Below are positions 2,941-26,569 of a stretch of DNA of 64,000 nucleotides, piece by piece. Source of the stretch: Beverwykella pulmonaria (Eukaryota > Ascomycota > Dothideomycetes > Pleosporales > Melanommataceae); assembly GCA_001599595.1 (NCBI GenBank), contig BCHH01000009.1, positions 1,339,774 to 1,403,773 of the forward strand, read 5' to 3'. Each line of letters opens with the position of its first letter. Within the stretch, counting starts at the first letter, position 1. Made by a program: the position numbers and the translations under genes. Below the pieces are notes generated by a model. It had not been told where the DNA came from. It did not search any database and was given only the letters and a program-made list of their open reading frames with translations.

Positions 2941-5900
2941 ATGGATGGTCCCACAACGCCACACAGGCACGACCGCTTTGCGCCGCCCTCATACGGCGGC
3001 CCTCCTTCATACACAACCGGCGACGACGACAACAACCACACACCAACTCACCCCCAGAGCGGGTCGACGATGCGCCTGTTGACCAACGCAGATGATGCGC
3101 CCAGCTACATACCGTACGTATACCTTTCTATTTTTTCTTTTCTCTACCAAGGACATACTCATTCTATGTTTCCTGCGTAGGGCATCTGTCCTGTCCGAAT
3201 CTTCGTCTCTCCTCTCCACCACGGCCAGGCTGGGCGGCACGCGCAGAGCCCCCGAAGCACGAAAACAACGGGCCACCGAGGATGCCATTGTAGACCTGCT
3301 GAGGGAGGCGGACACAGCCGTGAACCCGCGCGTGGAGGAGACGCCGAAAACGCTGAAGAGGAAGTCCTTCACATCGCGCCTCGCGGGCCGTCTCTCCCCT
3401 ACACAGCCAAAGCAAGACTCTGATCCAGGCTTACCGTTGCATGAAACCCGCAGACCCCCCTCGCCTATGACCCGAACATATCACCCCTCTGTGTCTTCCA
3501 TATCGAGAGCGCCTTCTGTGCTTGACACTGCGCCACGAATCCCGCCACCTGCGGACGACTCCCCTTCATACGTCCCGTACCGACGGTCCATCTCCCCGGA
3601 GCGACCGTACTCCCCAACACGGACATCAGCAGACTATGCGCGCCCGCCAGCATCGTCCGTCTCATACGAACCTTCAGACCTCAATGGCAGTCCGCGACCG
3701 GGTACACCCTCGTCCCGATATGGCGGAGGGCGGCCAGGCAGCCCCAAGCGCCCGCTGCCTCCTGCGCCATTGTTTGCTGGTGGCAGGCCCATCTCCCGTG
3801 ACTCCAATGCACCATCAGAACTATCCTCGATTCACGTCAACGACGACGACGTCTTCACCGACCCTTCAGGCGACCGCCCGGACCTACGCTCTCGGGACTC
3901 GTACATGACGGATGGCACATTCACCGAAGACTACGAACACACAGTGGCAGACGAGAAGGACGAGAAAGACGAAAAGGTCGAACACCACTACGGCCCGGCA
4001 CCCGTGGGCGCGCAGAGCCGACGTGGAGCGCGACACGCCGTCATGTCGAAAAAGGAAGTGCGCCTAATCAACGGCGAGCTGATTCTCGAGTGCAAGATTC
4101 CGACCATCCTCTACAGTTTCCTCCCGCGACGCGACGACATTGAGTTCACGCACATGCGCTATACGGCGGTAACGTGTGATCCTGACGATTTCGTGGACCG
4201 AGGATACAAGCTACGCCAAAACATTGGAACTACCGCTCGTGAGACGGAGCTGTTCATCTGCATCACCATGTACAACGAGAATGAAATTGACTTTACGCGA
4301 ACCATGCACGGCGTCATGCGCAACATCAGCCACTTCTGCTCGCGTACGCGATCCCGGACATGGGGCAAGGATGGATGGCAGAAGATTGTGGTCTGCATTA
4401 TTTCTGACGGTCGCCAGAAGGTGCATCCCCGGACGCTGGATGCACTGGCGGCTATGGGATGCTATCAAGATGGCATTGCAAAGAACCACGTCAATCAGCG
4501 CGAAGTCACAGGTCACGTTTACGAGTACACGACACAGGTGTCATTAGACTCGGATCTCAAATTTAAGGGGGCTGAGAAAGGAATCGTTCCGTGCCAGATG
4601 ATCTTCTGCTTGAAGGAGCGGAATCAGAAGAAGCTGAACTCGCACCGTTGGTTCTTCAATGCATTTGGTCGCGCACTGAACCCTAACGTCTGCATTCTTC
4701 TCGACGTCGGAACGAAGCCAGGGCCTAAATCACTTTACCATCTCTGGAAGGCTTTCGACACCGACTCGTCAGTTGCAGGTGCAGCCGGCGAGATCAAGGC
4801 TGGAAAGGGCAAGGGGTGGCTCGGACTGCTCAACCCGCTGGTCGCCTCGCAAAATTTCGAGTACAAGATGTCTAACATCCTCGATAAGCCGCTTGAGTCT
4901 GTATTTGGGTACATTACTGTGCTTCCCGGCGCTCTTTCCGCATACCGATATCACGCTCTGCAGAACGATCACACAGGCCACGGTCCTTTGAGCCAATATT
5001 TCAAGGGCGAGACATTACACGGGCAAGATGCTGATGTCTTCACTGCCAACATGTATCTCGCTGAGGATCGTATTCTATGTTGGGAGCTTGTGGCGAAACG
5101 GAAGGAACAATGGGTTTTGAAATACGTAAAGGCTGCTACAGGAGAAACGGATGTCCCAGGTAAGAATCTCTATGCCAGACCACGTCGTTACACACGCTAA
5201 TGTTTCCAGACTCGGTCCCCGAGTTCATCTCCCAGCGTCGGCGATGGCTAAATGGTGCCTTCTTCGCCGCCGTCTACTCACTGCTGCACTTCCGACAGGT
5301 CTGGTCCACCGACCACACCCTCTGGCGCAAAACTCTCCTCCACATCGAGTTCATCTACCAATTCGTTGCCCTCCTGTTCACCTTCTTCTCCCTGGCCAAC
5401 TTCTATCTGACATTCTACTTCATTGCCGGTTCTCTCGCCGACCCGAAACTCGACCCCTTTGGACACAACATCGGCAAATACATATTCTCTGTCCTCCGGT
5501 ACTCGTGCGTGCTGTTGATATGTATGCAGTTCATCTTGTCCATGGGTAATCGACCGCAAGGTGCAAAGAAGATGTTCATGAGCTCTATGGCTGCGTACTG
5601 CGTCATCATGGCCTACACGACTTTCGCCTCCATCTACATCGTGGTCGTGCAACTCAAAGACCCAAAGTCTAAGAAAGAGCTTGGAAATAATGTCTTCACC
5701 AACCTCATCGTCTCCACTGCTACCACAATAGGACTCTACTTCCTCATGAGCTTCCTGTACTGCGATCCCTGGCACATGTTCACCTCCTCGGCACAATATT
5801 TCGCGCTCCTCCCAAGTTACATTTGTACGCTGCAAGTTTACGCTTTCTGTAACGCTCACGACGTCACTTGGGGTACCAAAGGCGACAACGTAGCGAAGAC

Positions 5901-20849: not shown

Positions 20850-20854
20850 AGAGA

Positions 20855-20987
20855 TGTAAGCCGAGGACACCATAATGTCACGTGGATATGCCACTGACTA
20901 ATCAGTCCGTCATATATATATATCAGCTGTACATACATCACATACAATACACATCTTGACACCTCTTCCTCCGCCCTCCAGCTTACA
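20855..20987 (+). repeat. 5' LTR of the Copia element
   Basis: 133 bases beginning TGTAAGCCGAGGACACC and ending CCCTCCAGCTTACA, with short inverted ends TGTAAG/CTTACA and a tatatatata block. By eye it has no difference from the copy at 26143. Confidence 0.93.
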
Positions 20988-21002
20988 GTTATGAGCCCGG
21001 TT
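20988..21002 (+). promoter_or_regulatory. Primer-binding site matching the initiator tRNA-Met anticodon arm
   Basis: GTTATGAGCCCGG starts at the first base after the LTR. It is complementary to the anticodon stem-loop around CAU of eukaryotic initiator tRNA-Met (…GGGCUCAUAAC). That is the half-tRNA primer scheme known for Drosophila copia and yeast Ty5, not the 3'-end priming of most LTR elements. Confidence 0.75.
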
Positions 21003-21072
21003 CGTGCCTAACCGCACCATCAAATATCGTTTGACTATCACCGTTGTTTATTATTTGATCCTCGTCGTCAAT

Positions 21073-24000
21073 ATGTCTTCTACCGAACCCATTCTTCGAG
21101 GAAAATCCGACTGGGAGCACTGGATCTTTGTGGTCAAGCGAGTCGCTCAATCAGGAGGCGTATGGGATTATCTCAACCCCGAACAGCCTTATCGTCCTCT
21201 CAACAAGCCTGAGAAACCTCCTCGTCCAACTGCCGTTCCTAATGCTGCTGGAACTGCTTCTATCCAACCTACGCAGGGAGAGCTCACGCTATACAGTCAG
21301 GATATGAGCGCATATTACAAAGATATCAAAGAGTATCAGCGATTGCAAGATAAGTTAGGACAAGTTGGATCCCACATTGCTAAAACAATTCATCAGGATC
21401 TCATCTACTATATCTAAGACAAAGACGCTGTATACGATCAGCTCAAGGCGTTGGAAAAGCACTACTCACCTACGAGCTAGGATCAGAAATATCAAGTTCA
21501 ACAAGCGTACGAAACAGTTAAGATCCTGCATGCCTGCTGAACGAATATTGAGGACTGGTGCGACGCCTTTCTTGCTGCCTACAATCGCGCAAAACTACTC
21601 AAGCTGCCACAAGCACACGGCTTTCAACCTCACCACGATCTACTGCGAGCAATCAATTAGGTCAATCTAGGATATGCCGCTAGTATATCGCGCGAAATCT
21701 TCACCGCTGAGAAAGCCTGGGATGCAAACCCTGACGCTCTGATACTAGACTCTGTTCAGCTGTCAACTGTTGCCGCTGAATATCTGCAATACTATTGTGC
21801 CACACAATTAAAGAAAACCAATATACATAGGGGAGCATTTGGAGCGAAGCTGAACGGTGAAGAATCTCCATACAACAAGAAAAGAGCTAGGAACAGTAGT
21901 GATCTACTAAAGCCGTGCCTGTGTAGTAATATACACTACTGGGGCTAATGTCCCTACATTATTACATTGCTGAGACTAAGAGGATTTGTCAAAGACCCTA
22001 AAAAAGCCAAGAAAGTTGCTGATTATGAGGCTACAGACAAGAAAGGCATACTAAACAAGGTCCACAACAGGCAGAAGTGATTCAAGAAGCGCTATAGCAA
22101 GGGTAATGACAAGAAGGACGAATCTGATACAATAGAGATAGATGCTGGAGACAACCCTGCTTAGCCACTAATACCACATGCATTTGCAGTATTTTTGTTA
22201 GTGTTTAGCCCTTAATTGCATTAATCGCATCAATTGGAGCAGTACCCACTCCTCCACTCATGGACCTTGGATCCAGCCACTAATATCCACATTTGCAACA
22301 ACCTAGCCAAATTCTAATAGGTGGCACCAGCAGCTGACAATGATATTGTACTTGCTGGCAATGCCAAGATATCTATTTAGGCATGGGGAGAAGTGATGAT
22401 ACCCCTATCAACGCTGAAAGGCATTAAATCAACAACGCTCAAGTGAGTAGCGCTAATTCCGTCCTTCTTCACCAACCTTGTCTTACTATTACGCCTTGTA
22501 TTATTGAATGTCCACTTTAACTCTGGCCGCAATACCCTGTATTAGCTGACAGGATCAACCTAGGAAGACATCGCGCACCTTACCTGATATGGTGGTCACT
22601 GGCTTGTCGTGCACTGTACTAAGGCTATAACACCTTATCCTTATCAGCCACCTTAGCTATTCGCATATGCAACCACTAATTGTTGACCACAGTACTCCGC
22701 GCAGCCGCTTTAACCTTAGGCACTCACCAAGCCTTAGCTACATGTCTTGATGGCACACGCAGGCAGTGATGCAATCAACCACCTGTCCAACAACGTTATT
22801 AGTATTGACCTACCTAAGGGATCTGCTCCTTGTACCATCAACTGTGAAGAATGCTTGCAAAATAAGGCCTACAAAATTATATCTCAACACATTAGACATG
22901 AGAGAGGTGCATCACGTCTATTTGAAACAGTTGCTATCAACATTATTAAACTTAATGCCCCTAGTTACAATGGTCATTAATATGTGTTCTATAGATTTGA
23001 CCTATTCACGAAGTTCAATTTTGTATATACAATGCCCTGACGCGATAAAGAAGCACTGCTTGATATCCTTATACAACTAGATTAAACTATTAAACGCGAG
23101 TTTAATACTACTGTCACATTTATAATTATAGATGATGAGAGAGGATATAGTCTTAATAACAACTTAGTTTATGCATATTGCGCAGCACACGGTATTAACT
23201 TTTAGATTAGAGCACCTTATACTAAGGAGCAAAACGGTTCCGCAGAACGCTCAGGAAAGAATCTGATTGAAAAATCGCGATCTATGAAAGGCACATTAAA
23301 CCTACTACTAGCACTTAGCCCTGAAATCTATGTAACAGCAGGATATATACTTAATTAAACGCTGACAAAAGCATTAGGCTGGAAGACTCTATTTGAGGTG
23401 GCATATAACAAGAAGCCTTCAATTGCTCACCTTTGTATATATAGCTGTCGCGCATATGCACTTTGTACACAGATACCTAGAGGCGACAAATTGACACCAC
23501 GTGCTTTGATTGGATATCTTGTTGGTTATGACTCTTCAAACATATACTAAATATGGCTGCTGAAAGCTAGGAGCAGAGCACACTAAGGAAAGGTCATCTA
23601 AACGCGAGATGTTACTTTCAAGGAGGATCTATTCTATGATCACCGCGATGATTCTGATATACTACTCTGAGGGCAAGAACTAGAGGATATCTTACAAACA
23701 CTTTACATGCTACCACTTTGAAACCTAGAAGAATTGTCTGAATTAGAATCTGAACACAAGCCTAATTAACCTGCTAATCCTCATTAATCTGATTAACCTT
23801 CCTATCACTATTAATTTGATCACCTGATTGATTAGAATTGAATTAATTAGTTGAGCCAAAACAAATCACATGATCAGCTATCTCATCTACCAACTCCTGA
23901 TAGCTTGATATTACTATCACTAAATATCACTCCTGATTCGCACACACAGTCATCAACTACACGGTCATCAACTGTTTAGTTGACTACCTCTGAAACAAGC

Positions 24001-25884
24001 GACGCTCGTCAACTACACAATGAAGAAATGGCCGCTGTATCTACCTCTGCTGCCTCTACCGCCACTTCTACTAGAAAGCGCAAGAGACAAGATTTAACTA
24101 ACTTAAATGCAGCACAAAATCGCGAACTTATTAATAGCAACCTGCGACAATCTCATATCCTTCTGCAAGGATCCACTAGAACCAGGAAACTGTTGCAAAG
24201 GAATAGCAGCTTTTATATCACTAAGTACTAGTCAACCTTCGTCGCCGCCCTATTAAAAGGAACTAAAACATGATTTTATTAAAGCCAGCTGCCATTAGAG
24301 CCAATATCCTACAAGGAGGTGATGAAGCTACCTTATCCACACAACTAAGGATTCCTAGCAGCTGCTTAACGCAAGATTAGCACAATCTGGCGCAAAGGGA
24401 CATACACAAAGATAGCATGGAAAGACTTTAATGCCAATGATTACAAAGTTCTCCTAATAATGTGGAGATTTACACACAAGCTTGACAGTAAAGGATATCT
24501 TACTAATTACAAAGCTAGGATCTGTGTGCGCGGCGACCTCTAGACTACCGCCAAAGACACATATACAGCCACATTAGCCATTTGAACCTTCTAAGCTGTG
24601 ATGGCTATTGCAGCTCACTTTAATCTGGAGATGAGGCACTACGACGCTGTCAACGCGTTTACCAACGCTTGATTAGAAACGCCTGTCTATTGCCACGCAC
24701 TAGACGGCTTCTCTGACCCTGACCACCTATAGGAGCTGCACCGCGCGCTATATGGCCTCAAGATATTACCACTGCTATAGTACAAGGACCTTACCAAGTC
24801 GCTCAAGGAGCTAGGACTTGAAGAAGTCAAAGAAGCTCCGTGCCTGTGGATGAACGACAAGCTACTGGTATTTTTCTACGTGGATGATATTGTTGTCCTT
24901 GTCAAACTAGGTTATACACAAGTCATTGAACAGTTTGAACAAAAGCTCCTGCAGTAATATAAGATTAGATGCCTAGGAGAATTGACTACCTTCTGCAGAA
25001 TTCAAATTCAACGCGACTGAGAAGCGGGAAAGATATGGCTATCACAAGCTGCTTATGTTGACAAACTAGTGCTCAAATTCCTGCTACTAAAGCCTATTAA
25101 AGCTTCAACACTACTACTGCTCAAGGAACTGCTTCTGTCACTAAAACAGACAGAAAATGAAGCTAATATCACTCACTATGGTCAGCTAGTTGGATCAATT
25201 GGACACGCTGCGGAAGTTACTTGGCCCAATATTGCAAAAGCATATTCCAAGCTTGCCAAATTCTTGATCAATCTGTTGCAACAACATATCAACACCGCAT
25301 ATTATGTGATTGCATACCTTGGTCAGACACGTGATTAGTCACTGTGCTATAATGCATTAGTATCAACCAACTCAGCCTATATTGCTGACTGTGAAGAACC
25401 TGACTTCTTTGGAGCATCAGACGCATTATATGCTAATCACAAGGCCACGCGCAAAAGCTCACAAGGTTATATCTTCTTCCTATTTGGCGGTCCTATTGAC
25501 TGGAAAGCGACGTTGCAACGCTGTGTCACCAAATCAACCACTGAATCTGAATTGATCGCTGCATCATCAGCTGGCACTAAGTTGATATGGTGGTGGAGAC
25601 TATTCAAATCCATTAGATTTGAGCTTGACAATGAGCAACTGCTATACTGCGACAATCAACAAACAATTAGGTTGCTGAAAGAAGCTTCTCCGCGACTCAA
25701 AACCAAACTACGACATGTTGATATCTATCACTACTGGCTTCGTCAAGAGGTTCAAAACAATCAAATCAATATCGCATATATACAGACCAATAGTCAACCA
25801 GCTGACGGTCTTACAAAGCTGTTGCTGAGACAAAGGCATGAACACTGGGTGTCACTTCTTCACTTTGAGGATTTCCNATNATAA
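21073..25884 (+). pseudogene. Copia gag-pol polyprotein, single frame with ~50 stop codons
   Basis: The frame opens MSSTEPILRGKSDWEHWIF (gag start) and stays in the same phase for 4.8 kb. Along the way: an integrase core region (APYTKEQNGSAERSG near 23210-23260), an RT region with FFYVDDIVVLV near 24870-24905, and an RNase H end (TTESELIAASSAGTKLIW near 25540-25590; the ADGLTKLL motif near 25803). About fifty in-frame TAA/TAG/TGA codons interrupt it, falling where Gln, Arg or Trp would fit. No net frameshift exists from start to end, because the open pieces at 21073, 22747, 23980, 25069 and 25513 are all in one phase. The element cannot make its own proteins. Confidence 0.88.
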
Positions 25885-26131
25885 TTATTCTGTGTATCTC
25901 TTTATTTTGTATTCTTCTACTGTACATTGCTGTNAATTCTTGTAAACGGCTATTTCAAACCTCCAACCTCCATACAGAACACACGAAGCACAAATATGAT
26001 CGCCCCATCTGGAACTGCACCAGCAGTGGTTGACAAGCCTGTATTACAGCAGGACAGACCCACAAATATGCAGCTCTGCCTGAGAAAGGTAGAGGATGGC
26101 CTTCGATCGCTCCAGCTTTAAAGTTCAAAAC

Positions 26132-26142
26132 TGAGGGGGGTG
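26132..26142 (+). promoter_or_regulatory. Polypurine tract of the Copia element
   Basis: tgaggggggtg sits directly before the 3' LTR, the expected position and composition for the plus-strand primer. Confidence 0.7.
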
Positions 26143-26275
26143 TGTAAGCCGAGGACACCATAATGTCACGTGGATATGCCACTGACTAATCAGTCCGTCA
26201 TATATATATATCAGCTGTACATACATCACATACAATACACATCTTGACACCTCTTCCTCCGCCCTCCAGCTTACA
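26143..26275 (+). repeat. 3' LTR of the Copia element
   Basis: Same 133 bases as the copy at 20855, followed by the AGAGA target duplication and then sequence that continues the pre-insertion DNA. Confidence 0.93.
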
Positions 26276-26569
26276 AGAGAAGACCAGTACAAGGTCCACC
26301 GTAAAATCCTTCAAGTAGCCACATTCAACGTCTATCTTCTTTTTGCCCATAACACTTACCACTCGTGCTCCAAACAAACACTTAATGTCGCGATCAAACA
26401 CCAGCTCGTTCGTCATGCGCGCAACGAACTCAACCTCCCTGTTGATCTCAAAGTATACCTGAATCGGAAGAGCGTTGAACTGCACATACCTACTCGATGA
26501 CCCGTGATTCACCGTATACATCGACGACGTCACCATAAACTCCCCCTTGAACACCGTAGCCTCCTGCAA

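Follow-up and report, generated by a model that had tools for sequence, protein, structure and literature searches.

A Copia-type retrotransposon lies in the window (the whole stretch of 64,000 nucleotides that was analysed) with two identical LTRs enclosing a reading frame broken by 53 internal stop codons. Retrotransposon insertions are usually dated by the identity of their LTRs. The question raised by this locus is therefore how the ends of an element can look newly inserted when its interior is dead, and whether such a combination is an accident of one copy.

The element and its copies in the host genome

The element occupies positions 20855-26275 (5421 bp) and is of the Copia type. The preliminary description had placed it at 21073-25884; these positions are those of the open frame, the element itself being longer. 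The other structural claims of that description, i.e. identical 133-base LTRs with an intact 5-base TSD and about fifty in-frame stops with conserved phase, were borne out. The features of the locus are the following.

20850..20854, no strand assigned: 5' TSD copy AGAGA, read off the sequence
20855..20987, + strand: 5' LTR, 133 bp, TGTAA...TTACA (repeat search, 100% identity to the 3' LTR)
20855..21387, + strand: 5' spared zone, first 533 bp (1/243 C/G columns derived)
21073..25884, + strand: gag-pol frame in constant phase, with 53 stops inside it and one at its end
23404..23547, + strand: retroviral SH3-like domain PF25597 (SH3_retrovirus), on a piece between two stops (Pfam, 7.6e-11)
24436..25086, + strand: RVT_2 (PF07727), Copia-type reverse transcriptase with 8 stops within (1.1e-24, above the curated cut-off; C9:1364209-1364859)
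25943..26275, + strand: 3' spared zone, last 333 bp (1/155 C/G columns derived)
26143..26275, + strand: 3' LTR, 133 bp (repeat search)
26276..26280, no strand assigned: 3' TSD copy AGAGA, read off the sequence

The frame contains 54 stops in total (22 TAA, 19 TAG and 13 TGA), and the two other frames of the same strand contain 78 and 133. Three N are found at 25877, 25880 and 25934, near or after the end of the frame. Among ten pieces of the frame analysed with Pfam, SH3_retrovirus was detected above its cut-off, RVT_2 weakly, and two unrelated DUFs also weakly; six pieces had no match, and no match to an integrase core was obtained among the short pieces tried. RVT_2 is located downstream of the SH3-like domain and, on the basis of these two domains, the element is a Ty1/copia LTR retrotransposon. 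It resembles the Ty1/copia systems by its length of 5.4 kb, its short TG...CA LTRs, its 5-bp TSD and its RVT_2 domain, and its anatomy presents nothing unusual compared with them.

The host genome (45.6 Mb, 31 contigs) was searched with four queries. Those from the start of the open frame (its first 133 bp), from the centre and from the 3' part gave 29, 25 and 30 matches respectively, and the LTR gave at least 44 matches (40 of 603 first-look candidates scored). Thirty-two regions were taken, and 17 full-length copies, the window copy among them, were aligned; N are present in 11 of these 17. The alignment gives a median identity of 90.7%, with a median transition/transversion ratio of 8.6, and the number of stops per copy ranges from 2 to 69. 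The gaps of the frames relative to the other copies total multiples of three, and phase is therefore kept; the exception is a gap of 23 bp in L026, in which 502 N are present. Two additional pieces of the family were encountered: a second copy of about the first 480 bp of the element (L010:6239-6735, 96.8% identical to the window), separated by a gap from the full-length copy, and an inverted interior piece of 145 bp (L028:1644-1789) at the junction of a 2.8-kb internal deletion.

Nature of the mutations and their occurrence in place

Columns of the alignment with at least 12 letters vary as C/T in 734 cases, as G/A in 553 and otherwise in 195. In the central part of the element, the load per site is 0.194 at CpA and 0.190 at CpG, compared with 0.028 at CpT and 0.026 at CpC. 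The window copy shows C>T at 161 of 955 columns and G>A at 57 of 696, and single copies are strongly and oppositely strand-biased (C>T 163/945 and G>A 24/668 in L012; 50/937 and 134/704 in L017). The preliminary description had read the stops as Gln, Arg or Trp codons altered by C-to-T changes on either strand. The alignment agrees with this reading: for 51 of the 53 window stops, an open codon differing solely by C>T or G>A (mostly CAA, CAG, CGA, TGG or CGG) exists in at least one of the 16 other full-length copies, and for 2 it does not. This family-wide change, restricted to transitions and biased to CpA and CpG, is far beyond chance.

Judged from these contexts, the mutator has the character of a RIP-like C-to-T process acting in CpA and CpG on both strands. 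Over the repeats examined, C-to-T transitions affect both strands and sibling divergence is transition-only in three repeat families; since the ends are spared in all three (see below), we name the process RIP-like. The standard RIP indices, which the preliminary description had put forward as a check, are not raised in the window copy (TpA/ApT 0.97 and composite -0.36 for the frame), and they are raised in the interior of a copy of a second Copia family. A likely reason for the flat indices of the window copy is that CpG is targeted as often as CpA; surveys based on indices only could therefore miss such elements.

Two cytosine methyltransferase genes were found in the genome (L041 and L042/L043). 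L041 matches the solved DNA (cytosine-5) methyltransferase chains 9bap and 9baq with 349 bits, and its relatives include proteins named Dim-2, the nearest named one being from Pleomassaria siparia (65% identity); by these similarities it is DIM-2-like. Its nearest relatives, P. siparia included, presumably belong mostly to the Pleosporales, and the host is itself probably a fungus of this order. L042/L043 is a putative RID gene on account of a motif.

For the coexistence of intact LTRs and a mutated interior, the preliminary description had offered two options: either the interior had been struck after insertion with the LTRs being spared, or an already mutated copy had been mobilised in trans, with reverse transcription resetting the identity of the LTRs. 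The first option is supported and the second is not. Trans-mobilisation by an intact relative would account for identical LTRs around a dead interior in the window copy, and it could draw on the fact that 51 of the 53 window stops recur as stops in one or more of the other copies, only 2 being private. It would however predict lineages sharing their stops, and the sharing equals that of a swap null preserving row and column sums. Among the 17 full-length copies, no other one has the stop set of the window copy (its top Jaccard is 0.51) and no two insertions have nearly the whole pattern in common; the highest Jaccard of any pair is 0.52, below the 95% point of the null (0.55). The use of stop patterns as lineage markers was abandoned, as sharing at the level of the null leaves no visible genealogy. 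So few private stops, together with this null-level sharing, indicate repeated hits at preferred sites.

Linkage between mutated sites also speaks against mobilisation of a dead copy. Opposite-strand sites more than 50 bp apart show an r2 of 0.065-0.074, i.e. almost no linkage as about 0.0625 is expected, and at distances within 20 bp the value reaches 0.11. Between sites on the same strand, linkage is stronger and falls gradually from 0.147 to 0.082, as predicted by the strand bias of each copy. Moreover, closely related copies differ by hundreds of transitions and practically nothing else: L009 and L011 are separated by 284 transitions and 0 transversions (283 and 0 in a second projection), and L018 and L019 by 163 transitions and 1 transversion (161 and 3 in a second projection). 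The flanks within each of these two pairs do not match where sequence exists, the 3' flank of L009 being a gap. The mutations have occurred in place after insertion, by independent and recurrent hits, and there is no need to invoke the mobilisation of a dead copy in trans; with the further evidence of the repeat ends given below, we consider it very improbable.

Distribution of the mutations along the repeats

The combination seen in the window had been called unusual whichever option applied. In fact, identical LTRs are the rule: with the window included, 13 of the 15 copies in which both LTRs are complete have identical pairs and 2 have a single transition. The 14 other copies account for 12 identical pairs and the 2 with one transition, and their 5-bp TSDs match in 14/14. 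L009, L014, L018, L022 and L026, in which an LTR is truncated or gapped, and the second row of L010, all N, were left out of this count. From the interior rates, 81-190 transitions would be expected over the 15 pairs, compared with the 2 observed.

The low level of mutation is not confined to the LTRs. On the 5' side of the window copy, the first 533 bp have a single derived column among 243 C/G columns, compared with 28/287 in the following 667 bp; on the 3' side, the fraction is 50/323 at element positions 4200-4888, 1/155 in the last 333 bp and 4/68 in the 200 bp between. Over the 17 copies, the outermost 67 bp at the 5' end have a derived fraction of 0.000; it amounts to 0.024-0.042 up to 533 bp and to 0.096-0.126 farther in. 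Toward the 3' LTR it passes through 0.109, 0.076, 0.081, 0.043, 0.126, 0.031, 0.012 and 0.015, to reach 0.002 and 0.030 within the LTR bins; the value of 0.126 belongs to a small zone at 5022-5088, high within an otherwise falling profile. Part of the low level near the ends is inherited, as one half of the LTR has 0.03 despite identical pairs. The pairwise difference follows the same course: it is about 0.025 within the LTRs, 0.036-0.056 over the adjoining 400 bp and 0.06-0.15 farther inside, and has fallen to 0.026 in the bin just ahead of the 3' LTR. A single heavily loaded copy, L015, also declines toward its 3' LTR (55/189, 20/74, 14/58, 8/53, 2/17, 6/30, 4/35 and 3/33) and within it (2/28 and 0/29).

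The sibling pairs delimit the zone directly. Transitions between L009 and L011 start at position 244 and stop 721 bp short of the 3' end, and those between L018 and L019 start at position 620 and stop 374 bp short of it, with none outside in either pair. In a partial pair, L023 and L029 (245 transitions, 2 transversions), differences come as close as 167 bp to the 3' end. The sparing is a positional gradient, without a border at the LTR.

This gradient bears on two other explanations. N gaps in or near several copies might suggest that the ends were made alike by short reads or by polishing during assembly. Between copies, however, the LTRs differ both in length (131-135 bp) and in sequence while the pairs agree; the gradient lies moreover inside the element, and recurs in the longer LTRs and in the transposon pair described below, so that an assembly artefact has very little probability. 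Alternatively, LTRs mutated as often as the interior could have been re-homogenised by gene conversion, either between themselves or with solo LTRs, and the many LTR-like stretches of the genome (the at least 44 matches mentioned above) would provide donors. The spared zone extends, however, past the LTR into sequence that is absent from solo LTRs.

A second Copia family was more decisive on this point. Its LTRs measure about 305 bp, except in the C5 copy, where the length is about 241 bp; RVT_2 rows are present on C5, C7, C14 and C16, and the copies L046-L048 differ pairwise by 241-258 transitions and 0 transversions. In the LTR pairs of four copies, all differences (27/27) are oriented by position: at coordinates up to 96 the T or A is carried by the 3' LTR, and from coordinate 112 on by the 5' LTR. 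Five positions of the C5 copy (241-250), two of them transitions of opposite sense, were removed before this count because they lie at or beyond the LTR end, family 1 resuming at coordinate 242; the LTRs are only partly comparable, L046 having 70 + 12 N and the 3' LTR of L047 100 N. The LTR sequence of this family is mutated when inward-facing and spared when outward-facing. Gene conversion would equalise both LTRs instead of leaving them different in their inward-facing parts only, and resetting during trans-mobilisation cannot yield such a pattern either.

The sparing was also observed in a DDE transposon of 2115 bp (L049 and L050; 44-bp TIRs in L049). Over 2110 aligned bases, its two copies are separated by 57 transitions and 0 transversions, and no transition falls in the first 312 or the last 406 bp, where the target sites per base in L049 are more numerous (0.295 and 0.254) than in the centre (0.170). 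Under even targeting, such bare ends would have a probability of 5e-11 by length and of 1.5e-15 by targets, values which are indications only since these data also served to choose the end points. The sibling comparisons thus consist of two full-length pairs and a partial one in family 1, three copies of the second Copia family and one transposon pair. As the ends of a DNA transposon are spared, the sparing is special neither to LTRs nor to reverse transcription. This argues further against trans-mobilisation, and gene conversion between LTRs, for which the transposon ends would require a separate cause, is hardly to be believed. The same result bears on hypermutation of the cDNA during reverse transcription, for example by a deaminase, with the ends exposed more briefly. 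Such a process would fit the set of changes and the strand bias particular to each copy, but deamination of the minus strand predicts G>A alone, and both strands are affected in most copies, as in the window copy cited above. Derived sites are more numerous in broken relics than in full-length copies, which is also contrary to mutation of the cDNA, and we regard this explanation as extremely improbable.

The outer 0.1-0.7 kb of a repeat is thus largely spared, to a length that varies by pair and by family. Some sequences depart from this. One is an LTR of yet another family, lying nested within a family-1 copy (L035:1714-2384): 53 of its sites are derived, the first at 36 bp from the outer end, and the first 100 bp contain 3 of them compared with 6-14 in every following 100; the same LTR in an apparently solo state (L025:6097-6721, 625 bp) has 0 derived sites. 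The mutated domain may become wider where repeats are nested. Two broken relics, L033 and L034, considered as a means of telling the end of the homology from the end of the element, are mutated right to their broken ends, and the breakage possibly came after the mutation. Gypsy-like sequences (L044 and L045) were considered as a test family and dropped, no LTR pair being found within 10 kb. In the one pair compared of a 426-bp repeat with about 30 genome matches (L015:3988-4413 and L029:5976-6401), 12 transitions and 9 transversions were counted, i.e. no RIP signature, as expected for a short repeat.

Proposed process, its consequences and known systems

Taken together, these results make it very probable that the copies were mutated in place by a RIP-like process which is weak or absent near repeat ends, and that the 133-bp LTR lies inside the spared zone. 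A copy would insert and afterwards undergo C-to-T changes in CpA and CpG on both strands, to differing degrees among the 17 full-length copies, with mutation staying low near the repeat ends and reaching a plateau some hundreds of bases inward. The mutations would be made by the premeiotic RIP machinery of the host. The ends could be spared because the pairing of copies is less stable, or the mutator more poorly recruited, beside non-homologous flanks. As the LTR falls wholly in the spared terminal zone, its two copies stay identical whatever the fate of the interior. The window element is in this respect an ordinary casualty of a RIP-like process, and its value is the positional rule that it exposes: most likely, a RIP-like defence of the host mutates the middle of repeats and largely spares the outermost few hundred bases.

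Somewhat less firmly, we think it probable that, here and perhaps in other fungi, it is the core of the paired homology that determines the RIP footprint, the outer 0.1-0.7 kb being a blind zone. If so, dead copies would retain intact LTRs, TIRs and end-proximal promoters, LTR divergence would track the length of the LTR more than its age, and the ends of short-ended elements could remain recognisable in trans long after the loss of coding capacity. As the ends are almost untouched by the mutator, the LTR clock reads near zero here for heavily mutated elements. Being quantitative, the rule lends itself to verification by alignment in any fungal genome. It also bears on the premeiotic homology search, in which the middle of a homologous tract seems to matter more than its ends; homology recognition in RIP was reportedly the subject of a 2014 paper in Nature Communications.

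The process resembles RIP of Neurospora crassa by the C-to-T changes on both strands in repeats, the creation of stops and the hits recurring independently in each copy, as well as by the presence of a DIM-2-like gene with a second cytosine methyltransferase gene. It differs in that CpA and CpG are equally targeted here, whereas CpA dominates in Neurospora according to the excerpted text of PMC4522978. Repeats shorter than 400 nt are said often to escape RIP in the excerpts of PMC10823647. In the literature searched, partly in excerpt and with subscription papers mostly outside it, no distance-from-end rule for RIP was found stated. For the crapaud element of the Podospora anserina complex, the portion of PMC10787394 available describes full copies whose LTRs of 339-443 bp are RIPed and solo copies most of which are not. 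RIPed full copies alongside solo LTRs with few or no RIP mutations are common to both systems; by contrast with what that portion describes, the 133-bp LTRs are unRIPed here and longer LTRs are affected in their inward-facing part alone. The closest parallel to the window element concerns Mycosphaerella graminicola, in which 1 of 149 elements with intact LTRs has an identical pair and a RIPed interior, the LTRs having somehow escaped according to the authors (PMC4522978, in the same excerpts). This zero-age element resembles ours by its identical LTRs and mutated interior. As it appears in those excerpts, it is a single unexplained case, for which the positional rule offers an explanation; here, the pattern holds for most copies of the family and obeys a positional rule common to other families.
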